From NCBI RefSeq assembly GCF_004210215.2, contig NZ_CP067394.1:434001-498000 (forward strand): a stretch of DNA of 64,000 bases, written 5' to 3'. Shown here piece by piece: positions 3,469-63,097 of the stretch. The translations under genes and the position numbers were made by a program. The notes under the pieces are model-generated. The model was not told where the DNA came from and searched no databases. It saw only the letters and a program-made list of their open reading frames with translations. The number at the start of each line of letters is the position of its first letter. The stretch's first letter is position 1. This DNA is from Cryobacterium sp. SO1 (GTDB lineage Bacteria > Actinomycetota > Actinomycetes > Actinomycetales > Microbacteriaceae).

Positions 3469-3786
3469 GATGTCCTCCGCACAATTGCCCACCCCCCATT
3501 GTGTCGCCTCTGTACCCCGTCCGGGGTGCACGTGGCGTCGTCGCGCCCGCTTTTAACCTGACCGAAACCCGCAATTTACCCTCCCGACCTCCCCGCATTG
3601 GGTGGGGGGGCGCTGTCGTGGTTAGGCTGGGATCCCACACTGCGACTGTCACCTGAATGGGTGTGACCCGTTTGGGCGCCGCGGTGCGAGACATCGATCC
3701 ACCTGGGGGATTTTCGTGAAAACTATTAAGCTTGGGCTCGCGCAGTTCGCGGCGCGTTGTCCCGCGAATGCGGAAGCAGCTCCACT
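3469..3786. other. Divergent intergenic region of the polysaccharide locus
   Basis: About 320 nt between two divergent transcription units; I see no convincing gene. On the plus strand, GAAAC at 3564 is followed after 16 nt by CGAC, the general shape of an ECF sigma promoter, and a G-run follows at 3603. This match is weak and could be chance. Runs of C and G around 3490 and 3600 make simple hairpins possible. Confidence 0.4.
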
Positions 3787-25088: not shown

Positions 25089-25191
25089 TGTCTGAACGAA
25101 AGTTTTGACCTGTAGTGCGTTGGTTCCCCCCAATCGATGCACTGCCGAGGCGGCACCTGTTCCCCCCAATAGGTGCCGCCCCCCCTCTTTT
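25089..25191 (+). ncRNA. 6C RNA (small RNA with two C-rich hairpin loops)
   Basis: Two successive stem-loops each present the same loop sequence TTCCCCCCAAT. Hairpin 1 has AGTGCGT paired with ATGCACT (25114-25143). Hairpin 2 has a perfect 10-bp stem, GGCGGCACCT with AGGTGCCGCC (25149-25180), then CCCCCTCTTTT as a termination run. Two hairpins with at least six C in each loop define the actinobacterial 6C RNA. In Mycobacterium tuberculosis the homologue (B11) also lies at a Tad-type locus and pairs with G-rich mRNA leaders. The same synteny is seen here. Ends are predicted, not mapped. Confidence 0.88.
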
Positions 25192-37069: not shown

Positions 37070-37708
37070 ATGGCCGCCGCACCTGACGAACCGGGTCTGC
37101 GCGAGCGGAAACGCCTGGCCACCCGCCGGGAGATTCAGCGAGCGGTGCTCACCCTCTGTGCCCAACGGAGCATCGACAAGGTGACCATCGACGAGATCAG
37201 CCGGGTGGCCGAGATCTCGCCGCGGACCTTCTTCAACTACTTCGCCTCCAAGGATTCCGCCCTGGTCGGCGACGAACTGGAGTTGGCCTGCGACGCCGAC
37301 ATCGAACGGTTCATCACCGGCGGCCACGGTGGCGACGTCATGAACGACCTGGCCACCCTCATCGGCCGGAGCCTGCAGAACACCGACGGCGACCGCGAAA
37401 TCCACGAGCTACGTCGCGCGGTGATGAAAGACAACAGTCACCTGTTCACCATGCGGATGGCCACCCTGCGCAACTTCGAAGCCAGCCTGCAGCAGATCGT
37501 GGAGCGCCGGCTCACCGCCGACGACCCGAACCTCGGCGAGGCCCCCCGGGCCCTGGCCCAGCGGGCGCTACTGCTCACCCTGATCGCCATGGCCGCCACC
37601 CGGCATGCTTGGCGGTGCTGGGCCGAAGCGGATGATTGCACCCCGCTCTCGGCCTGGGTCGCCAAATCCTTCCGGGAGCTGTACACCGTGACCTCCCCGA
37701 CCGACTAA
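37070..37708 (+). CDS. TetR family transcriptional regulator
   Basis: A 212-residue repressor-type protein. The N-terminal TetR helix-turn-helix is RREIQRAVLTLCAQRSIDKV, then VAEISPRTFFNYFASKD, with the conserved Tyr and Phe. The effector domain is helical and not assignable. The ATG is 3 nt after the peptidase stop, so it may be cotranscribed and could control the peptidase gene. No operator is evident. Confidence 0.88.
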   Translation: MAAAPDEPGLRERKRLATRREIQRAVLTLCAQRSIDKVTIDEISRVAEISPRTFFNYFASKDSALVGDELELACDADIERFITGGHGGDVMNDLATLIGRSLQNTDGDREIHELRRAVMKDNSHLFTMRMATLRNFEASLQQIVERRLTADDPNLGEAPRALAQRALLLTLIAMAATRHAWRCWAEADDCTPLSAWVAKSFRELYTVTSPTD

Positions 37709-37760: not shown

Positions 37761-37833
37761 GCCGCCTTAGCTCAGTTGGTAGAGCGATTCACTCGTAATG
37801 AATAGGTCATCAGTTCGATTCTGATAGGCGGCC
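37761..37833 (+). tRNA. tRNA-Thr (CGT anticodon)
   Basis: The 73-nt cloverleaf has acceptor GCCGCCT/AGGCGGC, D-arm GCTC...GAGC, anticodon loop CTCGTAA (anticodon CGT, Thr) and T-arm ATCAG-TTCGATT-CTGAT. The discriminator is C, which is unusual, and CA follows, so CCA reads directly from the base after it. Foreign-looking DNA follows on its 3' side. Confidence 0.93.
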
Positions 37834-38052
37834 CAGTGAATCGCAGGGATGCTGGGCTATCCCGACTCGTCGTTGTGACCAGAGCGTGCACCCTGTTCTG
37901 AGTGCCTGTCTGAGGATCTCCGCGATCGACACGAATTATTCGTCGCTTATCAGAATGATCCAACAGCGCCGCCTGAGCCCACCAATCGCCGGATCGACGC
38001 GCGACAGCAGGCTTCCGAGCCCATTCCCGGGCTCGCGGCTTGCCGTTCGTGC
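37834..38052. other. Low-complexity-free intergenic stretch after tRNA-Thr
   Basis: About 220 nt with lower GC than its surroundings; frames here lack ribosome sites and read as non-protein. No copy of the tRNA 3' end or integrase remnant is visible. The ECF-like promoter of the next gene starts at its right edge. Confidence 0.45.
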
Positions 38053-38086
38053 GAAACGACACCCCGTTACACTCGTTCGGGGGGTA
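38053..38086 (+). promoter_or_regulatory. Shared ECF-like promoter, copy 1
   Basis: GAAAC, ten variable bases, then TACACTCGTTCGGGGGGTA. GAAAC to CGTT is 16 nt apart, as in ECF sigma promoters; TACACT alone would also fit a housekeeping -10. It ends 25 nt before the acyltransferase start. Confidence 0.75.
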
Positions 38087-38111
38087 CTCTCCCGCAGACC
38101 GAAGGAGAGTC

Positions 38112-39185
38112 GTGGGCGCGAGCAGAGCACCGATAGCGGTGGCCGCACAACAGCGAATTCAGTGGCCTGATGCCGCCAGAGGTATGGCGATCGTGCTGGT
38201 GGTCTTCCATCACGCCATCATCTATTCGGCTGCAGAGGGACTGGCCGCTCCCGGCTGGTTGGCGGCCACGGAAATGCTCCGAACGATGCGAATGCCGTTG
38301 TTCTTCCTGGCCGCGGGACTCTTCGCCGGAAAGTATGTCACCGGTCGCTGGCGGAGCGTTTTCCAGAAAAAAATACTACTTTTCGCCTGGGTATTCGTTC
38401 TGTGGGTGATTGTCCGATGGACCGTTCTCAATCTGATCCCTGGAGTGGACAGCGAGACCGGCATTCTGCAGTTGCCACTTCACCTGGTCTGGCCCGTTGG
38501 CGGTTGGTTCATTTTTGTCCTTGCGATCTACTTTGTACTCGCCAGATGCTCCGTCGGCATTCCGACGTCGATCCAGCTCGCCGTCGCAGGTGTCGCTTCT
38601 CTCCTCTGGTTCGCCCTGGACGATCCGATCGGCAACAACGGCTGGGATGGCGTACCCACGTTCTACTTTTTCTTCCTCGTCGGTTGTTACGGTCGATCGG
38701 GGATTCTCGCATTCGGCAACGCGTTGTCGGTGGCATCGGGGATTGCTGTCGTCGCCGGATGGGCAGCTTCCTACGTGGCTCTCGCACACTGGGGGCTAGC
38801 CGACGCGCCGGTGATCTCCTTCGCCATGCGAGTTCTTGGTTTAGGGGCAGGGATTGCACTGGCGCGTGGGCTAGAGCGTCATAGATGGTTGCGGCGGTTG
38901 GGTGGGCAGACGCTGCCGATCTATCTTTCACACACGCTGTGGATCTTCTTCGCCGTCTGGATACTCACCCTCATCTGGCCAGGCGGAGACTCCAGTGCGG
39001 CGATGTGGGTACCTCTCCCGATCGCATTGTTCGGGCTGGCTATGGCGTGGCTCATGGCGCGATGCGTTGCGTATCTGGGCGCAAACTGGCTGTTCGAGAC
39101 TCCGCAATGGCTGGCGGGAATGTTTGACCGGTTCTGGCCGCTGAGCAGGCCGATAGCGTCGCCGGACCCAACGGTCTCGAATTGA
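38112..39185 (+). CDS. Acyltransferase family 3 membrane protein
   Basis: A 357-residue multi-helix acyltransferase. The start of helix 1 reads IQWPDAARGMAIVLVVFHH; the Arg-Gly and His match the AcylT3 active region. LFFLAAGLFAGKYV and the late GGQTLPIYLSHTLWIFF are also typical. GTG has a perfect AAGGAGAG. Base composition is visibly lower in GC than the neighbouring genes and Arg/Ser codons are more mixed, suggesting transfer. It stands alone between tRNA-Thr and the GH13 gene. Likely acylates a surface glycan; the donor is unknown. Confidence 0.86.
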   Translation: MGASRAPIAVAAQQRIQWPDAARGMAIVLVVFHHAIIYSAAEGLAAPGWLAATEMLRTMRMPLFFLAAGLFAGKYVTGRWRSVFQKKILLFAWVFVLWVIVRWTVLNLIPGVDSETGILQLPLHLVWPVGGWFIFVLAIYFVLARCSVGIPTSIQLAVAGVASLLWFALDDPIGNNGWDGVPTFYFFFLVGCYGRSGILAFGNALSVASGIAVVAGWAASYVALAHWGLADAPVISFAMRVLGLGAGIALARGLERHRWLRRLGGQTLPIYLSHTLWIFFAVWILTLIWPGGDSSAAMWVPLPIALFGLAMAWLMARCVAYLGANWLFETPQWLAGMFDRFWPLSRPIASPDPTVSN

Positions 39186-39367
39186 CAGTTGGGCGCTCAT
39201 TGCCGATTTAGCCGCTCCTGAGACCGGAGACCCGCAGCTGAGGTGGACCACGCCGCGCGCTCCGCTTGACGTTGATGGATCTGATCGCCGGCACCTGAAT
39301 AGCCGAGAGCGTTGTGCGACCATGGGTGCCTTCCGGGAGGACTCGAGGGGCGCGATAGGGTCGAGAC
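39186..39367. other. Intergenic region before the GH13 gene
   Basis: About 180 nt, nothing recognisable except TAGGGT at 39356-39361, which lies 6 nt before the GTG of the glucosidase gene and probably is its -10 box. Confidence 0.45.
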
Positions 39368-40657
39368 GTGGCTGACTGGACCGAACACGTGATCTGGTGG
39401 CACGTGTACCCGCTGGGCTTCGTCGGCGCGGACACCACCGGCGCCGACCGCACGTTCACGCACAGGCTGCGGCAGATCGAGTCGTGGCTGGACTATTTGC
39501 TCGACCTCGGCGCCAATGGGCTGGCCCTGGGCCCAGTGTTCGCCTCACGCACGCACGGCTACGACACCACCGACTACTTCCAGGTGGACCCGCGGCTCGG
39601 CGACACCGCCGACCTCGAGCACCTCATCGCCGAGTGCCGTCGGCGCGGCATCCGGGTGATGCTCGACGGCGTGTTCAACCACGTGGGCCGCGAGTTCGCT
39701 CCGCTGGTCGCAGCGCTCGCCGATCCGGCCGCGCCCGAGAACGCCCTGTTCCGCCACAGCGCGGGCGACCTGGTGGCCTTCGAGGGGCACGACGCCCTGG
39801 TGACGCTCAACCACGACAACCCGGCCGTCGCCGACCTGGTCGCCGACGTGATGACCTACTGGCTCGACCGCGGCATCGACGCTTGGCGGCTCGACGCGGC
39901 GTACGCGATGCCCACCGAGTTCTGGGCGGGCGTGCTGCCGCGGGTGCGCGAGCGGCACCCCAAGGCGTACGTGATGGGCGAGGTGCTGCACGGGGACTAC
40001 GCCGGCTTCGTCAGCGCATCCGGGGTCGACACCGTCACCCAGTATGAGCTGTGGCAGGCCATCTGGCACGCGATCGGCGAGCGCAATTTCTTCGAACTGG
40101 ACTGGGCGCTCACCCGGCACACCGCTTTTCTCGGCGACTTCGTGCCGTACACGTTCGTGGGCAACCACGACGTGACCCGGCTGGCCAGCCAGATCCCCGA
40201 CGAGCGCCACCACCCGCACGCCCTGGTGCTGCTGCTGACCCTGGGCGGCACCCCGGCGATCTACTACGGTGACGAACTGGGCCTCCGCGCCGTGAAGGAG
40301 CAGCGCGCCGGCGGCGACGACGCGATCCGGCCCGCCTACCCGGCGACTCCGGCCGAGCTGCCGCCCGCGGACCAGGAACCCGTCGGCGCGACCACCTTCA
40401 CGCTGCACCAGGAACTGATCGGCCTGCGCCGCCGGCATCCGTGGCTACACGCTGCAACGAGCCGGCCATCGGCTCTGGCCAACACCGGCTACGTGTACGA
40501 AGTGACCGACGGCGTCCACCGCCTCGTCGTGGCGCTCAACCTGAGCGACGAGACCCTGCCGGTGACCACGGATGCCGCTGAGCGTCTCGCCGGCACCGCC
40601 GACCGCACCCCGGCCGGGCACACGGTGCCGCCGCACGGCTGGGCGATCTTCGGCTGA
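39368..40657 (+). CDS. Alpha-amylase family glycoside hydrolase (GH13)
   Basis: A 429-residue GH13 enzyme with all four conserved regions. Region I is MLDGVFNHVG. Region II is GIDAWRLDAAYAMP, with Asp as nucleophile. Region III is YVMGEVLHGDY, with the Glu acid/base. Region IV is FVGNHDVTRLAS, with His-Asp. No signal peptide, so it acts in the cytoplasm on oligosaccharides. Region II and the YPLGFVG start suggest a cyclomaltodextrinase, neopullulanase-like or amylosucrase-like role, not resolved here. It is shorter than typical secreted amylases and lacks their C-terminal domain beyond a short beta region. Confidence 0.88.
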   Translation: MADWTEHVIWWHVYPLGFVGADTTGADRTFTHRLRQIESWLDYLLDLGANGLALGPVFASRTHGYDTTDYFQVDPRLGDTADLEHLIAECRRRGIRVMLDGVFNHVGREFAPLVAALADPAAPENALFRHSAGDLVAFEGHDALVTLNHDNPAVADLVADVMTYWLDRGIDAWRLDAAYAMPTEFWAGVLPRVRERHPKAYVMGEVLHGDYAGFVSASGVDTVTQYELWQAIWHAIGERNFFELDWALTRHTAFLGDFVPYTFVGNHDVTRLASQIPDERHHPHALVLLLTLGGTPAIYYGDELGLRAVKEQRAGGDDAIRPAYPATPAELPPADQEPVGATTFTLHQELIGLRRRHPWLHAATSRPSALANTGYVYEVTDGVHRLVVALNLSDETLPVTTDAAERLAGTADRTPAGHTVPPHGWAIFG

Positions 40658-40704
40658 CGCCTGGTCGCTGGCACCGGCACCCGCGCGCATGGTTGACTCG
40701 AGGC

Positions 40705-41190
40705 ATGGGTCACACAGGGCGCGAACGAGTCGAAACGGATGCGCGGGCGCGCGGACTCGAGATCGACATCGTCGAGCGCCCCGCCGCCGACAGCCTCGAA
40801 AGCGCCGCCCGGCTGCTGGGGCTCGATCCTGCCGGCATCGTCAAGTCCCTCGTGGTGAAACGCCACGACGGCGACTACATCTTCGTGCTCGTGCCCGGCG
40901 ACCGGCAGATCAGCTGGGCCAAGCTGCGCGCCCTCGTGGGTGTGAACAAGCTGTCGCTGCCGCACCAGGACCTCGCGCTGGCCGCGACCGGATACGCGCG
41001 TGGCACCATCACCCCGCTGGGCAGCAGCACCGCCTGGCCGGTGTTCGCCGACGAGCGGATGCGCGGCACCCGGGTGGCCATGGGCGCGGGGGAGCACGGC
41101 TACTCCGCGTTCGTCGACGCGGACGCGCTGATCACGGCCTACGACGCCACGGTGGCCGACATCACCGACGAGCTCACGCCGCGCTCCTAG
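40705..41190 (+). CDS. YbaK/EbsC family protein (aminoacyl-tRNA deacylase fold)
   Basis: A 161-residue protein of the YbaK/ProX family, many of which clear Cys or other amino acids from mischarged tRNA. GIVKSLVVKRHDGDYIFVLVPGDRQISW (~residues 48-75) has the catalytic Lys; KLSLPHQDLALAATGYARGTITPLG follows as the family core. TTGACT sits 6 nt from the ATG. Its last 72 nt have a diverged twin at 47725 on the far side of the acyltransferase cluster. Confidence 0.87.
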   Translation: MGHTGRERVETDARARGLEIDIVERPAADSLESAARLLGLDPAGIVKSLVVKRHDGDYIFVLVPGDRQISWAKLRALVGVNKLSLPHQDLALAATGYARGTITPLGSSTAWPVFADERMRGTRVAMGAGEHGYSAFVDADALITAYDATVADITDELTPRS

Positions 41191-41313
41191 CGAGCCCCTG
41201 GAACTGTTGCCGAAACGGACTTCTGCGCGCTGCGCCCAGCGTGCACCGGGCGCAGACGTCAGCGGGGGCACCGGCCTGCTGCAGGCCGAAGCCGTCCTTC
41301 GTGTCACGCAGCG

Positions 41314-41347
41314 GAAACATCGTGCGGCTACACTCGTTCGGGGGGTA
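41314..41347 (+). promoter_or_regulatory. Shared ECF-like promoter, copy 2
   Basis: GAAAC-N10-TACACTCGTTCGGGGGGTA, identical to copies 1 and 3 outside the ten-nt spacer. It ends 27 nt before the ATG of the SGNH-fused acyltransferase and would drive the cluster downstream. Confidence 0.75.
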
Positions 41348-41374
41348 GCCTCCACGAAGATTTTTGGGGGATCC

Positions 41375-43579
41375 ATGAGCACAGTGCACGTCAAGCAGGC
41401 CACCGCGCCGGTCACCGCGACGACACCGAAGAAGAAGCTGCGGCGGGATATCCAGGGGCTGCGAGCGATTGCCGTCGTTGCCGTCATCGCCGACCACCTT
41501 TTCCAGTGGCCCACCGGTGGTTTCGTCGGCGTCGACGTGTTTTTCGTGTTGTCCGGTTTCCTGATCACCGGGTTGCTACTGCGCGAACACGACCAGACGG
41601 GCACGATCTCGTTCAGCGGGTTCTACAAGCGTCGGGTCCGCCGCATCCTTCCGGCCGCCACTCTTGTACTCGCAACCACCGTCGCCATCTCCTTCTTAAT
41701 CTTCAACGTCGGTCGTTTCGACCAGACGCTCGGAGATGCCGTCTGGTCGTTCATCTTCCTCGGAAACTGGCACTTCGCCGCGGATGGCACCAATTACTTC
41801 CTCGCCGGCGGCCCGGTCTCGCCCCTGCAGCATTTCTGGTCGCTGTCGGTTGAAGAACAGTTCTATTTCGTGTGGCCGTGGCTGATGCTCCTCATCCTCG
41901 CGCTCGGCGGCAAGGCCACCAAATGGGATCCCACAGTGGCACGCCGCGTGGTCGGCATCGTGATGCTGGCCATCGTCGTCGCCACCTTCGCGTGGTCGGT
42001 CTGGGAAACCGCGACGAATCCCACCTGGGCGTACTTCTCAACCTTCTCGCGCACTTGGGAACTCGGAATCGGGGCCTTGCTGGCCATTTTTGCCGGGCGC
42101 CTGTCATCGATCCCGTCGTGGCTGCGGCCCATCCTGGGCTGGCTGGGACTTGTCGGGATCCTCGCTTCTATCTTCCTGATCACCGACGCGCTGCCGTTCC
42201 CCGGCCCCTGGGCCGCAGTGCCGGTGCTCTCCACCGCCCTGGTGATTCTGGCCGGTACGAACGGTGAGGTGCGCTACCTCTGGCCGCTCACCAACCCGGT
42301 GTCGCGGTACCTGGGGGACATCTCCTACAGCCTGTACCTCTGGCACTTCCCGGTCGTCATCATGTTGGGCTCGGTGCTGGTTGAGGGCACCATCGAACAC
42401 GCGGTCACGGCATTGGTGCTGATGGCCATTCTGACGGTGCTGTCCTACCACTTCGTCGAACAGGCCGTACTCAGATCGACGTGGCTTCGCCCAGTGTCAG
42501 CGGAGGAGCGATCCGCTATTGAAAGCACCAAACGCCGGAAGGAGCGCGCTGCCAGTACGTCACGTACCCCGGTGGTGATCGGCGTTGCCCTGGTCGCCGT
42601 GGTGAGCCTCACCCTGGCGTGGGTGGCTCTCGTGCCGCGGGACCCACCGACCAGCGCGTTTGTCAGCCCGGCACAGGCCCAGGGCCAGCCGGAGGGCGCT
42701 GACGGCGGCACGGAGGAGCAGGTGCCGGCCGGCCCGGCCGGTGAACTCACTGCGGGTTTGACCGCGGCGCTCACCAGCGACTCCTGGCCTGCGTTCGATC
42801 CGCCCGCCGACGGGTCGGTGAACTTGCGTGTTCCACAGTGGATTGAGGACAACTGCCTCAACGTCGGCGAAGACACGGTGAACGATTGCACCTACGGTGC
42901 CGCCGAACCGACCAAGACCGCGGTCGTCGTGGGAGATTCCATCGCCACGAGTTGGCTTCCTGGCATCGTTGCTGCACTCGAGCCGCTCGGTTACTCGGTG
43001 CAGCCGCTTACTCGGGAAAAGTGTCCGGTGGGCTTGATGCCAGTCACCTCCAGCGAAGAGACAGGCGGGCCGCGCTACGAGGCCTGTGACAGCCAGCACC
43101 AGTGGGTGGCCGAGAAGGTGCAGGAGATCCAGCCGGATCTTGTCATCATGTCTGACTCTTTCCACGGCCTGAACCGACTCACCAGCCAAAATCGTGGCGA
43201 TGCGGCCAACGCGGAGTGGAAGGCGGGTTTCGGCCAGGCACTGAGCACTCTGCCGGCCGAAACGAAAAAGGTGGTGCTCATGTCTCCTCCCGGGGCTGGG
43301 AACATGACGCAGTGCTATACCCCGGTGTCCAGCCCGAAAGACTGCACCGGGAACCTGCAGCCCAACTGGAAGAACATGCTGGATGCCGAGGCCGCCGCGT
43401 CAGCTGAAGCCGGCGTGGAGTTCGTGGACACCAGGGATTGGTTCTGCGTGACCGACCGATGCCCCGCCTTTGTCGGCACCACGTCCATCTACGCTGACTC
43501 TGCGCACCTCACAAAAACCTACAGCGAGAGCCTTGCCCCGGTCATCATCGCGAAACTCCAGGAGCTCGGGCTTGTCTAG
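41375..43579 (+). CDS. Acyltransferase fused to SGNH hydrolase domain (OafA/YrhL type)
   Basis: A 734-residue two-domain enzyme for glycan O-acylation. Residues ~20-390 form the AcylT3 membrane domain (RRDIQGLRAIAVVAVIADHLFQW; VDVFFVLSGFLITGLLL; SLSVEEQFYFVWPW; YSLYLWHFPVV). After a TM and a Gly/Pro linker, the extracytoplasmic SGNH domain has VVVGDSIATSW (Ser522) and a late ADSAHLT with Asp/His. This layout moves an acyl group across the membrane and then onto a polymer. The ATG follows GGGGGATC. First gene of the accessory cluster, with the polymerase gene 19 nt downstream. Confidence 0.92.
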   Translation: MSTVHVKQATAPVTATTPKKKLRRDIQGLRAIAVVAVIADHLFQWPTGGFVGVDVFFVLSGFLITGLLLREHDQTGTISFSGFYKRRVRRILPAATLVLATTVAISFLIFNVGRFDQTLGDAVWSFIFLGNWHFAADGTNYFLAGGPVSPLQHFWSLSVEEQFYFVWPWLMLLILALGGKATKWDPTVARRVVGIVMLAIVVATFAWSVWETATNPTWAYFSTFSRTWELGIGALLAIFAGRLSSIPSWLRPILGWLGLVGILASIFLITDALPFPGPWAAVPVLSTALVILAGTNGEVRYLWPLTNPVSRYLGDISYSLYLWHFPVVIMLGSVLVEGTIEHAVTALVLMAILTVLSYHFVEQAVLRSTWLRPVSAEERSAIESTKRRKERAASTSRTPVVIGVALVAVVSLTLAWVALVPRDPPTSAFVSPAQAQGQPEGADGGTEEQVPAGPAGELTAGLTAALTSDSWPAFDPPADGSVNLRVPQWIEDNCLNVGEDTVNDCTYGAAEPTKTAVVVGDSIATSWLPGIVAALEPLGYSVQPLTREKCPVGLMPVTSSEETGGPRYEACDSQHQWVAEKVQEIQPDLVIMSDSFHGLNRLTSQNRGDAANAEWKAGFGQALSTLPAETKKVVLMSPPGAGNMTQCYTPVSSPKDCTGNLQPNWKNMLDAEAAASAEAGVEFVDTRDWFCVTDRCPAFVGTTSIYADSAHLTKTYSESLAPVIIAKLQELGLV

Positions 43580-43598
43580 GTCTGGCGGGGCAGAGCCG

Positions 43599-45110
43599 AT
43601 GACGGTCGTTTCATTGCGGCAGCCGGCGCCGCAGGCACACCGCTCGCAGCCCATCGGCTACGGCTTCACCGCGACCCTGCTCACCCTCGTCTTTGCCGGG
43701 TTGATGCCGATCTACCTCATGACCACGATCCCGTATCCCACCGATCAGGCCGTGGTCGGCGACGCTGTGCTGGCGTTGATCATCCTGGTCTACAGCGGTA
43801 CCCGGTTGGCGTTCGTCATCGGTCGCGGGCTGCCGACCCTGTTCGCTTTCGCCTTCTGGCTCTTCGTGTACGTCTTTCTGGCCGTCCCCGCGTTTGCGCA
43901 GGTTCTCGCGAGCCGGTCGCCGGGCACAACTCCCGATATCAGCCTCGAATACAACACAGAGTCGCTGGTGATCATCCTGCTCGGCCTGGTCGCCACCGAG
44001 GTGGGGGCGCTCTTCGTCTCCCGGCGGACAGGGCCGACGACCCCGGGCGTCTCAAGCCGGTCGCGGCGCGCCAGTCCGGTGCCGAGGGAGTTCTCCCGCG
44101 CCCGGATAACGCTGCTCGCGCTGGGAGGGTTCGCCATGTGGGTGTTCTACGTGGCCCGGATCGGTCCAGCGACCTTCTTCACCAGCCGGGAATCGATGGC
44201 GCTCATGCGCGGTGTCGTTTTTCCGGAGCCGACGTTGTCCACGATAATCGCCGCGTCGGCCTCCATCCCCTTGCTGGTGTGTGTGCATGCGATGGCGCGT
44301 TACCGACGAGCGGAGGTTGCGGCAGGCATCGCAAAACGCAGCTTCACCCTGATGATGCCGATGGCCGCCTTCGCCGTGGTCTTTGCGATCAATGTCTTCA
44401 GCTCATCCCGGTACCTTTTCGGCACCATGGCCTTCAGCCTCCTGGTTCTGATCGGAGCATTCGCGACCAGGGCGCGCATCCGCTGGACCATGTCGATCCT
44501 CACCGGAGTGCTCCTGTTCGGCTTCCCACTGTTCTCAATCTTCCGTCGCGAAGCGACCCAGACCAGCAGCCAACTCGGTGCAGGCGCGTTTGTGAACAGC
44601 GGTGACTACGATTCTTTTGCCCAGATCAACAACGCGGTCAACTACGTGTCAGTTGAAGGGATCCTGTGGGGCAAACAGCTTCTGGGTCCTCTGGTTTTCT
44701 GGGTCCCGCGGTCGATCTGGCCCGACAAACCGATCGACACCGGAGTTTTCATCGCCCAGTTCCGCGGGTATCGGTTCGAAAACCTGTCAGCGCCGTTTTG
44801 GGCCGAGGCCTATCTGAGTGGGGGGTGGGCAGGTCTTGTCATTCTGTTCGTGCTGCTTGGCTTCATTCTGAAGAAAGCGGACCGCACCACCCAGTTCGAT
44901 CTCGCCACCTCCGGGGTATCCGGTGTCGCTGTCGCAATTCTCTCGTTCTATCTGCTGATTCTGCTTCGAGGTTCCCTCCTCCAGGCAACCAGCATGCTCG
45001 CGGTGATGGTCTTCAGCATCTGGTTCGTTTCGAGACGGGGAACGCCACAGGCTCGCACGACCGGAGACCGTCGCGGTCTGATCCGCGCTCAGGAGTTTCC
45101 CAGAATGTAA
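43599..45110 (+). CDS. Wzy-like oligosaccharide repeat-unit polymerase
   Basis: A 503-residue protein with about 10-12 hydrophobic segments. The region NNAVNYVSVEGILWGKQLLG and then PRSIWPDKPIDTG, followed by FWAEAYLSGGWAGLVI, matches the extracytoplasmic loop of O-antigen-ligase/polymerase family proteins (Arg and Pro-rich loop, then Glu and Gly-rich helix). It would polymerise lipid-linked oligosaccharides outside the membrane. The ATG follows a weak GGCGGGGCAGAG. It lies close behind the SGNH acyltransferase, probably in one operon. Confidence 0.82.
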   Translation: MTVVSLRQPAPQAHRSQPIGYGFTATLLTLVFAGLMPIYLMTTIPYPTDQAVVGDAVLALIILVYSGTRLAFVIGRGLPTLFAFAFWLFVYVFLAVPAFAQVLASRSPGTTPDISLEYNTESLVIILLGLVATEVGALFVSRRTGPTTPGVSSRSRRASPVPREFSRARITLLALGGFAMWVFYVARIGPATFFTSRESMALMRGVVFPEPTLSTIIAASASIPLLVCVHAMARYRRAEVAAGIAKRSFTLMMPMAAFAVVFAINVFSSSRYLFGTMAFSLLVLIGAFATRARIRWTMSILTGVLLFGFPLFSIFRREATQTSSQLGAGAFVNSGDYDSFAQINNAVNYVSVEGILWGKQLLGPLVFWVPRSIWPDKPIDTGVFIAQFRGYRFENLSAPFWAEAYLSGGWAGLVILFVLLGFILKKADRTTQFDLATSGVSGVAVAILSFYLLILLRGSLLQATSMLAVMVFSIWFVSRRGTPQARTTGDRRGLIRAQEFPRM

Positions 45111-45166
45111 CATTCCCGTCGACCGGTTGGCAACCCCATCCGGGGGCCACTGGTTAGGCTCGTGGG

Positions 45167-46357
45167 ATGGGGAACATCGAGGGGTCGTCGCGTCCAGAGT
45201 TTCCGTATCTGGACGGCATCAGAGGATGTGCTGCTATCGCAGTCGTGCTCTATCACGCATTCCTCTTCACGGGGCTGTCGAACCAAACGACGTGGGAGTT
45301 GCGGGTCGTGGACCTGATCGTCGGATGGGGCTACCTCGGGGTGCCCGTCTTCATCGTCCTGTCCGGGTATGTACTCATGCTTCCCACACTGTCCAATGGG
45401 AACAGGCTGCGCGGCGGCACAATGCGCTACCTGACCCGCCGTGCTCGGAGGGTGGCTCCGCCGTACTACGCCGCGCTCATCATCAGCATTCTCCTGATAC
45501 TCCTGATTCCGGTCATGCAGCAGCCGTCTGGAACACAGTGGGATACCAAGCTGCCCATGACGGTGCCCGGCGTCGTGAGTCACTTTCTGCTGGTCCACGA
45601 CTTCTCCGCGGAGTGGATCGGTGCCATCAACGGTCCGCTGTGGAGCGTCGCGGTCGAAGCACAGATCTACCTGCTCTTCCCGCTCCTCCTACTCCCGCTC
45701 TGGCGGCGCTTTCGCCCGGGTTGGGTTGTCGCGGGCGTTGTCATCGTGTCGGTGTCGCCCGTGTTCACCGGAATCGGCGTGTGGGCGCATCCGTGGCTTG
45801 TCGGCATCTTCGCGATGGGGATGTGGTCGGCTCAGGTGACGATGAGTCAGACCCGGAATCGCTGGGCCGGTCCGCTGTTCATCGTCTTCGGTGTGCTCAC
45901 CCTGATGGCGATAGCCGCGACCCGGGTCTTCGACATCCGCTCGCTCGGCCTCATCGAGATCTGCGCGGGAGGGGCCGTAGCGACCGGCCTGGCCTGGGCC
46001 GGCCAGAGGTCCGTTGCTGGAGCGACGCCCCTGATCGTCAGGCCCTTCCAGTCTGAACCGATGATTCGTCTGGGCCTTTTCTCGTACAGCATCTATCTCT
46101 TGCACAGTCCACTGCTGGCCCTGGCCAACCTGCTCCTGATGCCCTTGGGGCTTCCGATCGCTGCCCATTGGGCGCTCATGACCTTTGCCGTCGCGCCGGT
46201 TGTCGTCGCGCTCTGCTACGTGTTCTTCGTGCTGGTTGAAAGGAACTTCCTCAACACCCGACAGCGCCACGCCAAGGTGGAACTATCCGAGCACTTACCG
46301 ACCGACGCCTCCGCGGCCGTCCCCATGCAGGATCGGCGACGCTCCAGGACGCGATAG
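45167..46357 (+). CDS. Acyltransferase family 3 membrane protein
   Basis: A 396-residue AcylT3 protein. FPYLDGIRGCAAIAVVLYHA holds the Arg and His signature; VPVFIVLSGYVLMLP and GPLWSVAVEAQIYLLFPLLL follow, and SYSIYLLHSPLL near the end. TAGGCT lies 6 nt before the ATG, so it may have its own leaderless start in addition to readthrough from the polymerase gene. No SGNH domain. Confidence 0.87.
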   Translation: MGNIEGSSRPEFPYLDGIRGCAAIAVVLYHAFLFTGLSNQTTWELRVVDLIVGWGYLGVPVFIVLSGYVLMLPTLSNGNRLRGGTMRYLTRRARRVAPPYYAALIISILLILLIPVMQQPSGTQWDTKLPMTVPGVVSHFLLVHDFSAEWIGAINGPLWSVAVEAQIYLLFPLLLLPLWRRFRPGWVVAGVVIVSVSPVFTGIGVWAHPWLVGIFAMGMWSAQVTMSQTRNRWAGPLFIVFGVLTLMAIAATRVFDIRSLGLIEICAGGAVATGLAWAGQRSVAGATPLIVRPFQSEPMIRLGLFSYSIYLLHSPLLALANLLLMPLGLPIAAHWALMTFAVAPVVVALCYVFFVLVERNFLNTRQRHAKVELSEHLPTDASAAVPMQDRRRSRTR

Positions 46358-46435
46358 ATGAATTCGCGTGCCTTCTCGGCAACCGATCCCTCGCTCACGG
46401 GGTCAGGAGACTCGTCAGGGCAGTGTCATCGGGCC

Positions 46436-46469
46436 GAAACCTGGTCCCGATACACTCGTTCGGGGGGTA
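46436..46469 (+). promoter_or_regulatory. Shared ECF-like promoter, copy 3
   Basis: GAAAC-N10-TACACTCGTTCGGGGGGTA again. It ends 21 nt before the ATG of a 29-codon leader ORF that precedes the last acyltransferase. Confidence 0.75.
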
Positions 46470-46490: not shown

Positions 46491-46580
46491 ATGACCACAT
46501 TTGCTGGATGGCTGACGAGTGCGCGACCGCGTCTCCGGGCGCGTGTCGGCGCGAGTCGCCGCATCGGATGGGCTACGTGA
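46491..46580 (+). CDS. Putative 29-residue leader peptide
   Basis: A short ORF directly after promoter copy 3. CGGGGGAAAC gives it a ribosome site like that of the gene after copy 2. It reads MTTFAGWLTSARPRLR, then a basic tail. Its TGA lies inside the next gene's start region; GTG at 46577 overlaps it as GTGA. The length and position suggest translational coupling. A frameshift in the acyltransferase N terminus is the alternative. Confidence 0.5.
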   Translation: MTTFAGWLTSARPRLRARVGASRRIGWAT

Positions 46581-47707
46581 AGACCATCGACCCGTCGGGC
46601 GGCGGGACGAGCGGGACGTTCGGGCCCCGTGCCGGAGCGTTCCACATCCCGTCCTTGGACGGAATCCGCGCGATCGCGGTTCTCGTCGTCTTCGTCGGGC
46701 ACGGCTATCTGGCGCCGGCGGCCTGGCCGGGTCATGTCGGAGTCACGATCTTCTTTTTCCTCAGCGGTTACCTCATCACCACGCTTCTCCGGCGTGAGTA
46801 TGCGAAGACTCGCACGGTGTCGCTGAGGCGCTTCTACCTGCGCCGGGCATTGCGGATCCTGCCGCCGGCCTTTCTGGCGATCATCGTGACAGTGGCGCTC
46901 GGCGCCACCGGCATCGTGGTGTCGTCGACCACTGGATGGGGAGTGCTGGCGGAATTTCTGAACTATACGAACTACTACATCGTGCTGTTCGGACGTGACG
47001 GACTGCCGCCGGAGTCCACTCAGCTCTGGTCGCTGTCCGTCGAGGAGCACTACTACCTCGTCGTGCCCGCCGTGCTGCTGGTCCTGTTTCGCAGGAAACT
47101 GTCCGTTCGTGCGATCGGCTGGATCCTCGTCGTCGTCGCCAGCGCGGTCCCGGTATGGCGTATCTACCTCGGCCTCACCGGAGCAAGCTTCGATCGCCTC
47201 TACGTGTCAACCGACACGCGCATCGACAGCTTGATCTTCGGCAGCGCAATGGCGCTGCTTCTCAACCCGGCCCTGGGTGACCGTCTTCCCGGTGGCGCAC
47301 GCACCGATTGGCACGTCCGGCGCTGGATCGCGCCGCTGGCCGTGGTGGTTTTCGTGGCCGTGGCACTCGTCCCGCAGCTGGAGTTCCGCCTCAGCATCGC
47401 TGACACCATCCAGTGCCTGTGCCTGGTGCCGATCTTCTGGTACATCATCGTGCACCCACACAGCACTGTCGGCCGGATCCTGAATCATCCGGTGGTCCAG
47501 AAGATCGGTGCCCTGTCGTTTTCCATCTATCTCTTCCACCGGCTTGTGCTCGTCCTCGTCGACCAGTCCTTCATCACCGTGCCGGCCGTGGTGGACCTGG
47601 TGTCGTTGATTCTCACTATCCTTCTGGCGCAGGTGGTTTTTGTTTCCGTGGAACGACCCTGCGGCCGACTGCGCAAACGGCTGGAGTACAGCCTGCCCCT
47701 GCGATAG
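46568..47707 (+). CDS. Acyltransferase family 3 membrane protein
   Basis: A 379-residue AcylT3 protein. Helix 1 reads IPSLDGIRAIAVLVVFVGHG; THE family motif VTIFFFLSGYLITTLLRREY follows, then LWSLSVEEHYYLVVPAVLL and the late LSFSIYLFHRLVLV. No ribosome site is seen before the ATG given or the GTG 9 nt later, which fits reinitiation after the leader ORF. It ends the cluster; a ybaK 3' fragment follows at 47725. Confidence 0.86.
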   Translation: MGYVKTIDPSGGGTSGTFGPRAGAFHIPSLDGIRAIAVLVVFVGHGYLAPAAWPGHVGVTIFFFLSGYLITTLLRREYAKTRTVSLRRFYLRRALRILPPAFLAIIVTVALGATGIVVSSTTGWGVLAEFLNYTNYYIVLFGRDGLPPESTQLWSLSVEEHYYLVVPAVLLVLFRRKLSVRAIGWILVVVASAVPVWRIYLGLTGASFDRLYVSTDTRIDSLIFGSAMALLLNPALGDRLPGGARTDWHVRRWIAPLAVVVFVAVALVPQLEFRLSIADTIQCLCLVPIFWYIIVHPHSTVGRILNHPVVQKIGALSFSIYLFHRLVLVLVDQSFITVPAVVDLVSLILTILLAQVVFVSVERPCGRLRKRLEYSLPLR

Positions 47708-60621: not shown

Positions 60622-61524
60622 ATGGTGCGGGTCATGGTGAGCCTGTTCGGGTGGCCCACCGTGGCCCGCGCTGCACGTCCGGCGCAGCTCCGGCGTTCAG
60701 GAACCGCCTGGGCAGGCCGGCCAGACCGCCCCGCCGAGTACCGGCAGGTCGGATTCGGCCCGGTGCTGGCGGGTGCGCTGATGCTGGGCCTGCTCAGCGG
60801 CTGCGCGGCGCCGCTCACCATCATCGGCGGCACTGATCCTGCCGCCGGTGGGTTCACCGGCCTGGGCGGCCCGGCCGCAACCGGACTGCCCGGGGGAGCG
60901 CCCGGGCCTGACACCGGGTCCAAGTTCGGCTCGCGCTTCGGCGCCGGCACAGGCGCCGGCGATGGAGACGCGTCCGAGTCGCCGTCCCGGGTGCCCTCCC
61001 CGGCCCCGGTGTCGCCGGCAGAGGTACCCGAGGTGCCCCGCCAGTCAACGTCGCTCGCTGCGCTGCCCGCCCCGGTCAGCGCCCCGGTGCGGGTGCGGGC
61101 GGACTCGATCGGCATCGACATGGCGATCGAAGCGGTGGGACTGGGCGACGGGTCGGCGATGGCCCTGCCGGCCAACCCGGCGGTCGCCGCCTGGTACCGG
61201 TACGGTGCCGGCCCCGCCAGTCCTGCCGGAGCCACCGTCGTCGCCGCGCACGTGGATTCTCTGGTTTACGACATCGGTCCGTTCGCCCAACTTGCCGATG
61301 CCCCGGCTGGCACCGAAATCGTAGTGGACACCGCCGACGGCGCGACGCAGCGGTACGCCGTCGCGACCGTCGACATTGTCGAGAAGACCTCGGTACCGTG
61401 GTCGAGCGTGTTCGACCGCACGGGCCAGTCCCGGCTCATCCTGGTGACCTGCGGCGGCGAGTTCGACTACGAGGCCCGCCGGTACCTGTCGAATGTGATC
61501 GTGACGGCGGTGCCGGCGCCATGA
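60622..61524 (+). CDS. Class E/F sortase
   Basis: A 300-residue transpeptidase that attaches proteins to the cell wall. A hydrophobic segment with LLSGC (~residues 47-60) may be a lipobox or a membrane anchor. A Pro/Ala-rich linker follows to ~150. The catalytic His is in TVVAAHVDSL, Cys277 in RLILVTCGGEFD, and the Arg in YEARRYLSN. The start is uncertain; an ATG 12 nt later is possible. Its natural substrate may be the preceding DUF4397 protein, though no motif is seen. Confidence 0.87.
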   Translation: MVRVMVSLFGWPTVARAARPAQLRRSGTAWAGRPDRPAEYRQVGFGPVLAGALMLGLLSGCAAPLTIIGGTDPAAGGFTGLGGPAATGLPGGAPGPDTGSKFGSRFGAGTGAGDGDASESPSRVPSPAPVSPAEVPEVPRQSTSLAALPAPVSAPVRVRADSIGIDMAIEAVGLGDGSAMALPANPAVAAWYRYGAGPASPAGATVVAAHVDSLVYDIGPFAQLADAPAGTEIVVDTADGATQRYAVATVDIVEKTSVPWSSVFDRTGQSRLILVTCGGEFDYEARRYLSNVIVTAVPAP

Positions 61525-61686
61525 ACCGCTGTGGGATCCTGTGCCGAAAGCAACCCGAACGGGGTGTGCTCGGATCGGCCGGGCGTGGTTATGCTGGTCG
61601 CACTTGCGGGTCGGCCTGGTCGAGCCGTGAGTGCTGAGATGGACACCCGCACGACGCGGTACCGATCCCGGAGGCAGCACGTCCAC

Positions 61687-62262
61687 GTGAGCGCACCCTA
61701 TCCGAACAGCACCGACGATGAGCGTGACCAGTCCAACCTGGTCGCGGGCTTTCGCGCGGGCGACGAAAACGCCCTCGCTGAGGCCTACGCCCGCTGGTCG
61801 TCGCTGGTCTACACCCTGGCCGTGCGCTCGCTCGGCGACGCCGGCGAGGCCGAAGACGTCACCCAGAAGGTGTTCATCGCCGCCTGGCGCGGTCGGGCCG
61901 GGTTCAACGAGGCCCGGGCGGCGCTACCCGCCTGGATCGTGGGAATCACCAGGCACGCCATTGCCGATGCTCACGAGGCCCGTGCTCGCCGAAGGCGCCT
62001 CGAACAGACGCTGGTGGACGAGGCCGAGCTCTACATCGTCGATGAGTCCGCCGACGTGGCCGAACGGCTGCTGATCGGTGAGGAGCTCAACCGCCTCGAA
62101 CCGGTGCCGCAGCGGGTGATGCGACTCGCGTTCTACGAGGACCTCACCCACGTGCAGATCGCCGATAGCCTCGGATTGCCGCTCGGCACCGTGAAGAGTC
62201 ACATCCGCCGCAGCCTCACCCGCTTGCGCACTAGATTGGAGGCGAACGATGACGCATCTTGA
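61687..62262 (+). CDS. ECF sigma factor
   Basis: A 191-residue group IV sigma factor. Region 2 (LAEAYARWSSLVYTLAVRSLG, then EAEDVTQKVFIAAWRGR) and region 4 (VPQRVMRLAFYEDLTHVQIAD, then GLPLGTVKSHIRRSLTRLR) are complete, with SigK/SigL-like features. The GTG is chosen for the GGAGG upstream, though spacing is long; an ATG 48 nt earlier is possible. The anti-sigma gene overlaps its end by 14 nt. Its own promoter is not obvious. It is a candidate to read the GAAAC-N16-CGTT promoters in this window. Confidence 0.92.
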   Translation: MSAPYPNSTDDERDQSNLVAGFRAGDENALAEAYARWSSLVYTLAVRSLGDAGEAEDVTQKVFIAAWRGRAGFNEARAALPAWIVGITRHAIADAHEARARRRRLEQTLVDEAELYIVDESADVAERLLIGEELNRLEPVPQRVMRLAFYEDLTHVQIADSLGLPLGTVKSHIRRSLTRLRTRLEANDDAS

Positions 62263-63097
62263 CCGCGACACGCTCGCCCTTGTCGCGCTCGCCGAACTCG
62301 AGCTCAGCGCCGCCGAACGCGAGCACCTGGCCGCCTGCCCGGGCTGCTCTGGTGAGCTGGATGCGCTTCGCCGCACCGTGCTGATCGGCCGCAGCGCCGG
62401 CAGCGTCGACCTCGTCACCCCCGCGGATGCGGTGTGGGGGCGCATCCACTCGGCCCTCGGCCTCTCCGACGCGGTGGCCGCACCGCCGCGACTGGCCGGG
62501 CTCGACCTGGCCGGCAGCGCGCTGGCCGGCTCCGAACCGGCGCGTCTGGAAGCGGCACGTGCCGACCAGAACCCGGCCGCGCCCGACCCGGCCGTACCCG
62601 ACCCGGCCGCACCCGCCCCGGCCGACCGGGCGCCGGTCACGTATCTGCGCCGGCGTCAACGCACATGGGTGCCCGTGGCCGCCGCGGCCTGCGCGGTCGG
62701 CCTCGTGGGCGGCGTCGCCGCTGGAGCGTGGTGGCAGTCGACCAGCGCTCCGGCGCCGGAGACCGTGATCGCACAGGCGCAGCTCGACGCGCTGCCCGGC
62801 TGGACGGCGCGCGGCAGTGCTCTGGTGGAAGAGTCCGACGACGGCCGCCGTGAGGTGGTGGTGGACCTGGCCGACGACGCCGGCGCCGACGGGCTGCGCG
62901 AGGTGTGGCTGCTCACCGCCGACGCCACCGGGCTGGTCAGTGTGGGGCTGCTCGACGGGTCCTCCGGCCGGTTCAGCATCCCGGCGGGCGTCGACCTGGC
63001 CGAGTTCCCGGTGGTGGATGTCTCGGCCGAACTCGCCGACGGCAACCCGGCCCACTCGGGCGACTCGATCGTGCGCGGCACCCTGAACACCCTCTAG
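62249..63097 (+). CDS. Anti-sigma factor, RskA-like, transmembrane
   Basis: A 282-residue anti-sigma factor. The N-terminal zinc-binding ASD has HLAACPGC (His26, Cys30, Cys33). A Pro/Ala-rich stretch (~105-130, PDPAAPA repeats) leads to one helix (WVPVAAAACAVGLVGGVAAGAW), and the RskA C-terminal domain with TARGSALVEE and VSVGLLDGSSGRFSIP lies outside. It should hold the sigma factor at the membrane until proteolysis by a signal. Overlap with the sigma gene gives stoichiometric synthesis. Confidence 0.92.
   Translation: MTHLDRDTLALVALAELELSAAEREHLAACPGCSGELDALRRTVLIGRSAGSVDLVTPADAVWGRIHSALGLSDAVAAPPRLAGLDLAGSALAGSEPARLEAARADQNPAAPDPAVPDPAAPAPADRAPVTYLRRRQRTWVPVAAAACAVGLVGGVAAGAWWQSTSAPAPETVIAQAQLDALPGWTARGSALVEESDDGRREVVVDLADDAGADGLREVWLLTADATGLVSVGLLDGSSGRFSIPAGVDLAEFPVVDVSAELADGNPAHSGDSIVRGTLNTL

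Follow-up and report, generated by a model that had tools for sequence, protein, structure and literature searches.

A conserved promoter cassette suggests that an acquired acyltransferase island of Cryobacterium is tuned to nitrogen supply

Three acyltransferase units behind one motif

We analysed 64,000 nucleotides (nt) of the forward strand of Cryobacterium sp. SO1 (assembly GCF_004210215.2, contig NZ_CP067394.1, positions 434,001 to 498,000), hereafter the window, in which three units of predicted acyltransferase genes follow copies of a short promoter-like motif. The motif copies, the genes of their locus from tRNA-Thr onward and the 6C RNA all lie on this strand. The motif, GAAAC-N10-TACACTCGTTCGGGGGGTA, occurs in exact form at 38053, 41314 and 46436 (n=3 in the window) and never in dinucleotide shuffles. 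In unit 1, GAAAC (38053–38057) resembles the second half, or b-site, of a binding box for the nitrogen regulator GlnR; it had been read as the −35 element of an extracytoplasmic function (ECF) sigma promoter in the original prediction. The 19-mer of this unit (38068–38086) comprises TACACT as a candidate −10 (38068–38073), a discriminator and a run of G (38079–38084), together the predicted start region. Unit 2 carries GTCAC-GCAGCG-GAAAC (41303–41318), an exact GlnR-box consensus with a-site and b-site in 11-base-pair (bp) register, followed by the 19-mer (41329–41347) with its TACACT and G-run (41340–41345). Unit 3 has a GlnR-box match, GTCAT-CGGGCC-GAAAC (46425–46440), and the same 19-mer (46451–46469; TACACT, G-run 46462–46467). 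The GTCAC or GTCAT that precedes GAAAC by exactly 11 bp in units 2 and 3 goes beyond the original prediction; at unit 1 the a-site position (38042–38046) reads GCCGT, that is, no a-site.

The 19-mer ends 25, 27 and 21 nt before the start codons of units 1, 2 and 3, and directly downstream of all three copies lie AT3 (PF01757) genes, one of them with an SGNH fusion. The geometry that had been described, with GAAAC and CGTT 16 nt apart and the motif 21–27 nt before start codons, is thus borne out at all three sites, and Pfam and the reading of open reading frames (ORFs) agree with the genes named downstream: an AT3 gene after tRNA-Thr, the AT3-SGNH gene and the leader of the last acyltransferase.

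The fixed edge of this variable region is tRNA-Thr(CGT) (37761–37834). AT3 acyltransferase a (38112–39185; PF01757, GTG start) has an ortholog in C. arcticum that is 75% identical and stands behind a variant of the same promoter. An alpha-amylase gene (39368–40657) and a gene with a tRNA-editing domain (40693–41190) separate units 1 and 2 as backbone genes of the hotspot (39368–41190). The fused AT3-SGNH acyltransferase (41375–43579; PF01757 and PF19040) has a Shine–Dalgarno sequence, GGGGG, at 41366–41370, and is followed after 19 bp by the gene for an oligosaccharide repeat unit polymerase-like protein (43599–45110). Its relatives carry the names O-antigen polymerase or oligosaccharide repeat unit polymerase; among those with a name, the best matches come from Herbiconiux and Clavibacter. 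The match to TIGR04370 falls below the cut-off. A Wzy_C protein occupies a similar position in C. adonitolivorans. AT3 acyltransferase b (45167–46357; PF01757) has no motif copy in front. Unit 3 opens with a 29-codon leader ORF (46491–46580), the TGA of which overlaps the GTG start of AT3 acyltransferase c (46577–47707; PF01757), to which we infer that it is translationally coupled. At the single C. adonitolivorans site, a 42-codon ORF (L100, reverse complement 3475–3603) is likewise followed by an ATGA overlap with an AT3 gene (PF01757, 80.5 bits) whose similarity to acyltransferase c is limited to short, weak matches. This leader-ORF layout, in which the stop overlaps the AT3 start as GTGA or ATGA, thus recurs, after the same promoter, before two very distant AT3 genes. 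AT3-SGNH proteins are described as acting on extracytoplasmic glycans (PMC9558356), and the AT3, AT3-SGNH and polymerase-like genes form a build-and-acylate set for a predicted glycan.

The promoter element is conserved at six sites in three species

Throughout the SO1 genome (one contig, 4,068,634 bases), the three window sites are the only copies of the 19-mer with up to two mismatches; a fourth place needs three. Among the named genome records scanned, the exact 19-mer was also found in C. arcticum SK-1 (two sites, A and B, including a variant) and C. adonitolivorans (one site), in each case at the same tRNA-Thr hotspot and before AT3 genes. The genome-wide search therefore came out as the original prediction would have it: the 19-mer is confined to the three sites at home and precedes AT3 genes in two other species.

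We aligned the six sites (units 1–3 of SO1, C. arcticum A and B, and C. adonitolivorans). Three blocks are conserved, with variable spacers between them: GTCAY at −26 to −22 and GAAAY at −15 to −11, counted from the first T of TACACT, and the 19-mer. The commonest letter is present in 5, 5, 6, 5 and 4 of the six sites across GTCAY and in 6, 6, 6, 6 and 5 across GAAAY, and 17 of the 19 columns of the 19-mer are invariant, upholding the earlier suggestion of constraint beyond the hexamers. GAAAC is found in five sites and GAAAT in one, always in the same register, 6 nt after the a-site position; TAnnnT is kept in all six, as TACACT in five and TACCCT in one. The variant, C. arcticum site A, combines GAAAT with TACCCTCGTCCGGGGGGTA. 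By contrast, the 10-bp spacer keeps 2–7 of its ten letters in the 15 site pairs. Further upstream, at −75 to −41, even orthologs come close to background, with 11 and 7 of the 35 bp identical. Because the 19-mer is fixed while the 10-bp spacer varies, selection rather than recent copying accounts better for the likeness of the sites, and the element looks selected because the upstream DNA is otherwise unalignable. As far as sequence can tell, it is a real, constrained promoter-like cassette shared by the three acyltransferase units.

Recent gene duplication was considered as a source of the three copies and rejected: acyltransferase a has no significant match to the other AT3 proteins, and the best pair, the N-terminal part of the SGNH fusion with acyltransferase c, is 27% identical over 364 amino acids. 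The DNA outside the motif module, which cannot be aligned between units, is a further point against it.

A GlnR-type box beside a sigma-A-like −10

In Streptomyces the GlnR box is given as gTnAc-n6-GaAAc (PMC3087709, PMC10704036), and in M. smegmatis as Gn2AC-n6-GnAACA, with AC/T-n9-AC as its key (PMC3662644). At five of our six sites, GTCAC or a close variant stands exactly 11 bp 5′ of GAAAC, the exception being 38053. In register with GAAAC, GTNAY is exact at four sites (units 2 and 3, C. arcticum B and C. adonitolivorans); the fifth has a near a-site, TTCAC (three of four letters), and the sixth, unit 1, none. The final A of the M. smegmatis box is also present at unit 2, C. arcticum B and C. 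adonitolivorans. GTNAY has a background frequency of 0.0052 in the window, and GTNAY-N6-GAAAC occurs there four times on both strands, two of these within the motif. The GTCAY-N6-GAAAC box ends 10 bp 5′ of TACACT, which has the form of a sigma-A −10.

The E. coli PhoB box has two halves 11 bp apart, the second of which ends 10 bp upstream of the −10, and replaces the −35 element. As a test for a PhoB-like layout, we searched the SO1, C. arcticum and C. adonitolivorans genomes for GTCAY-N6-GAAAC-N10-TANNNT with at most one mismatch. The search returned ten places: four AT3 sites without mismatch, three glnA promoters, and three with no counterpart in the other genomes; with the pattern reversed, the total was two. 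The glnA promoters, one per genome and each with a single mismatch (GTAAC for GAAAC), are the only other place common to all three. Upstream of glnA, which encodes a 474-residue glutamine synthetase (recognized by Pfam in both genomes scanned), all three genomes have a full a-b-a-b array, GTAAC-N6-GAAAC-N6-GTCAT-N6-GTAAC. In addition, we noticed post hoc that the predicted start of glnA resembles those of half of the AT3 sites (units 2 and 3, and C. arcticum B): all read TCGGGG(GG)-n-AGCC, 3–4 nt after the −10 if that of glnA is TAATAG. In 891 kb of retrieved DNA the pattern has 15 distinct contexts (overlapping loci included), six of which are these glnA and AT3 sites.

Taken together, these observations suggest that the acquired glycan-acylation island uses sigma-A promoters under activation by GlnR, or by a different regulator of the OmpR family, a reading that we consider slightly favoured over its negation. 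We infer the identity of the regulator, the direction of control, the start sites and the glycan. In the proposed mechanism, the island would have a sigma-A-type promoter in three copies, each with TACACT as its −10 and, in place of the −35 box, GTCAY-N6-GAAAC as an operator made of a single GlnR-type box (a-site and b-site in 11-bp register). An OmpR-family regulator, most likely GlnR, would bind this operator as a tandem dimer, bringing in RNA polymerase at nitrogen shortage. Transcription would start in the G-run, giving leaders of about 25–35 nt with strong Shine–Dalgarno sequences. The products, AT3, AT3-SGNH and repeat-unit-polymerase-like proteins, would make a surface polysaccharide or exopolysaccharide and add acyl groups to it. 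An envelope-stress regulon, as had been proposed for these genes, loses most of its basis because GTCAY-N6-GAAAC-N10-TACACT matches a GlnR box with a sigma-A −10, for which glnA serves as the control in three genomes.

Several observations weigh against control by GlnR. Unit 1 fits only in its b-site, with GCCGT at the a-site position, and its ortholog reads TTCAC-N6-GAAAT. The invariance of CGTTCGGGGGGTA is not explained by GlnR and needs a further reason. The regulator could instead be MtrA, which in Streptomyces is able to occupy GlnR boxes in competition with GlnR (PMC10704036). Finally, the −10 of glnA is ambiguous: TAATAG and TAGTGT, 7 and 10 nt beyond the last half-site, are both candidates, and the 10-bp distance between box and −10 consequently has no independent confirmation; its only other parallel is the E. 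coli PhoB promoter.

Alternative readings of the element

The original prediction took the motif for an ECF sigma promoter of a small regulon, with GAAAC as −35, CGTT as −10 and a spacing of 16. GAAAY and CGTY are indeed kept at all six sites with a fixed N16 (one variant site has CGTC), and a −10 of CGTT or CGTC at 16–18 nt is present at the sites. The SigH-dependent amtR promoter of C. glutamicum, GGAAAC-N17-CGTT, comes close to unit 2, and the Corynebacterium ECF consensus is reported as GGAAC-N17-18-cGTT (PMC10012870). PF08281 matches the genome 27 times at E 0.001 or better, not always in sigma factors; one match belongs to a sigma/RskA-type pair at 61531–63097. GAAAC-N16-CGTT occurs at 15 places in the genome, three of them the AT3 sites, against seven for the reversed pattern. 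However, five of the six sites read CGAAAC or CGAAAT with N16, unlike a GGAAC-type −35 (unit 2 has GGAAAC), and this reading leaves TACACT, GTCAY and the G-run without a role; a G-run follows none of the 12 other GAAAC-N16-CGTT places. Upstream of 10 of the 27 sigma-like loci, with starts chosen automatically, we saw no GAAAC-N16-CGTT and one GGAAC-N16-CGTT (L124), and no GAAAC-N16-CGTT was seen upstream of the sigma/RskA-type pair with its sortase gene (60622–63097; L118). The 16-nt spacing is real, then, but the ECF assignment appears a weaker fit than a GlnR-type box, and we regard it as unlikely. Open frames were tried as an anti-promoter sign for the other 12 places and dropped, as the SO1 motif sites also lie in open frames (402, 569 and 449 codons).

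A different regulator might instead bind the 19-mer as an imperfect dyad, TACnCYC-N5-GGGGGTA, across the −10 and start, making it a repressor operator to which GTCAY-GAAAC is secondary. Such an operator would account for the invariance past the −10, and the C. arcticum site A variant is more symmetric. Yet the dyad is only modestly symmetric, its common form agreeing by eye at 5 of 7 arm positions, the genome has no other copies of the 19-mer, and there is no regulator among the island genes scanned; the nearest, a TetR-family gene at 37070–37708, has orthologs in 47 genomes, 44 of which lack the motif. We find this distinctly improbable. Control at the level of leader RNA, with the invariant G-run as a site for the CCCCCC loops of 6C RNA or for GTP-sensitive or reiterative initiation, seems to us very improbable, even with a 6C RNA within the window as a candidate partner for the G-runs (25111–25184; 44.9 bits, 2.1 bits below the Rfam gathering score of 47 and so missed at the default threshold). 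The G-run is kept at all six sites. Among 46 plausible gene starts of the window, chosen by length and codon-position G+C rather than by annotation, the unit-2 start ranks first for duplex formation with the 6C loops (−20.1 kcal/mol; next −16.6), and units 3 and 1, computed apart, also lie above the next best (−19.7 and −17.0 kcal/mol). The duplex prediction thus places the leaders as the strongest partners, but any G-run pairs with CCCCCC, and unit 1 pairs mainly through its G-run; pairing of 6C with the leaders is possible.

We also rejected a hairpin masking the Shine–Dalgarno sequence, or a G-run/C-run switch, as a general feature: folding was suggestive in several leaders, and four of six were no better than shuffles. 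For the orthologous leaders of unit 2 and C. arcticum B, the shuffle fractions were 0.04 and 0.027 when folded from the A after the G-run, and 0.07 and 0.25 from the first G.

Two layers might conceivably be joined in a reusable cassette of the horizontally acquired island: a GlnR box that couples it to nitrogen status, and an invariant start region, CGTTCGGGGGGTA (partly shared with glnA), whose 5′ G-run would be read by GTP-sensitive initiation or by 6C RNA. We hold this to be a rather remote prospect; if true, 6C would be a post-transcriptional partner of the nitrogen response.

Two side observations concern these subjects. The sortase gene in 60622–63097 is followed by genes for an ECF-type sigma factor, putatively of the SigK kind, and an RskA-type anti-sigma factor, a candidate for a small surface-protein regulon. 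A near match, GACACTCGnnCGGGGGGT(A/G), was seen in four other Cryobacterium genomes (L019, L021, L023, L029); in L019, the one of the four that was read, it lies between an apparent CCCCCC stretch of a 6C RNA and an apparent acetyl-CoA synthetase gene.

An island at a tRNA-Thr hotspot

Scanning 57 Cryobacterium genomes for GAAAY-N16-CGTY-N-GGGGGGTA with one mismatch allowed gave matches in four. Three are the AT3-cluster genomes, with 3, 2 and 1 sites; the fourth is G019, at an unrelated place with one mismatch. With matches confined to AT3-cluster genomes and this one place, the motif travels with the acyltransferase units. At up to three mismatches, the 34-mer was found among 299 family genomes, a set outside which C. 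arcticum falls, in the SO1 genome, C. adonitolivorans and one G147 place judged unrelated. The bare 19-mer with three mismatches matched 24 of 60 relatives, which is chance level because the reversed control matched 23 of 60. Plasmids and viral contigs gave no match. Nor was the motif seen by eye in 28 stretches upstream of more distant AT3-SGNH relatives, some of which may be misplaced, with the N-terminus unaligned; the genomes of these 28 loci are also covered by the 57-genome scan.

The TetR-family gene has orthologs (E 1e-50 or better) in 47 of the 57 genomes, SO1 included, and we compared the hotspot stretches of 12 further genomes chosen among them. In other Cryobacterium genomes the backbone comprises a TAP-like hydrolase, TetR, tRNA-Thr(CGT), the amylase, a YbaK-like gene and an oxidoreductase. 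All 12 stretches have the tRNA-Thr, and all 12 lack both the AT3/polymerase set and the motif, including G070, whose TetR is 96% identical. By tblastn, three (L156, L161, L162) show no backbone beyond TetR. In L160 the oxidoreductase follows TetR closely, and L155 has an SGNH relative, 28% identical, on the opposite strand. No tRNA-derived repeat of at least 12 bases, such as an att duplication would leave, was found elsewhere in the window. The acyltransferase units form an island, apparently an acquired one, at a tRNA-Thr hotspot, a point not made in the original prediction.

C. arcticum has its YbaK-like gene after the AT3 cluster, and no amylase match was seen in its stretch, whereas in SO1 and C. 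adonitolivorans the amylase and YbaK genes precede the AT3-SGNH or AT3 unit; because the order differs, the hotspot has been rearranged. Separately, 14 loci of other Cryobacterium (L074–L087) have AT3-SGNH genes about 42–44% identical to that of the window and a different conserved promoter or leader, recognizable by eye around GTCATAATCGCAG and ending near GAGTCGGAGGCTATACATG or a close variant. As these loci share such upstream sequences, other AT3-SGNH genes of the genus carry a conserved leader of their own.

Implications and comparison with known systems

On this reading, control of the island would lie with nitrogen (or MtrA) rather than with envelope stress, which suggests an acquired acyltransferase island tuned to nitrogen supply. 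If true, how far Cryobacterium acylates a surface glycan or exopolysaccharide would depend on nitrogen supply, and the island would be a case of acquired DNA whose short promoter cassette is fitted to a regulator that acts throughout the host. A limited literature search, covering titles and the openings of abstracts, found neither a link of GlnR with exopolysaccharide, acyltransferases and actinobacteria nor one of GlnR with Cryobacterium.

The window proteins share their Pfam domains and fusion architecture with the AT3 and AT3-SGNH carbohydrate acyltransferases OafA, OatA and SucT (PMC9558356); the NCBIfam model of SucT matched far below its cut-off. With SigH- and SigE-type ECF promoters, the AT3 sites have in common AAC and CGTT or CGTC at nearly the right spacing, but they differ in reading CGAAAC at five of six sites, in a spacer about one base short and in their conserved TACACT and GTCAY. 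The PhoB box of E. coli has the same layout as the AT3 sites, although half-site sequence and regulator differ. MtrA sites, given as GtnAcC-n5-GTnAcn (PMC13189361), are likewise 11-bp direct repeats of GTnAC-like halves for a regulator of the same family, but the second half at the AT3 sites is GAAAC, the form of the GlnR b-site. The GlnR-activated glnA and amtB promoters of actinomycetes have the same GTnAY-n6-GAAAC box in register. They carry two or three boxes, whereas the Cryobacterium AT3 promoters have one, precede glycan acyltransferases on an island and keep an invariant 13 bp after the −10. In kind, the element would be a familiar nitrogen-type promoter; what is unexpected is its location.

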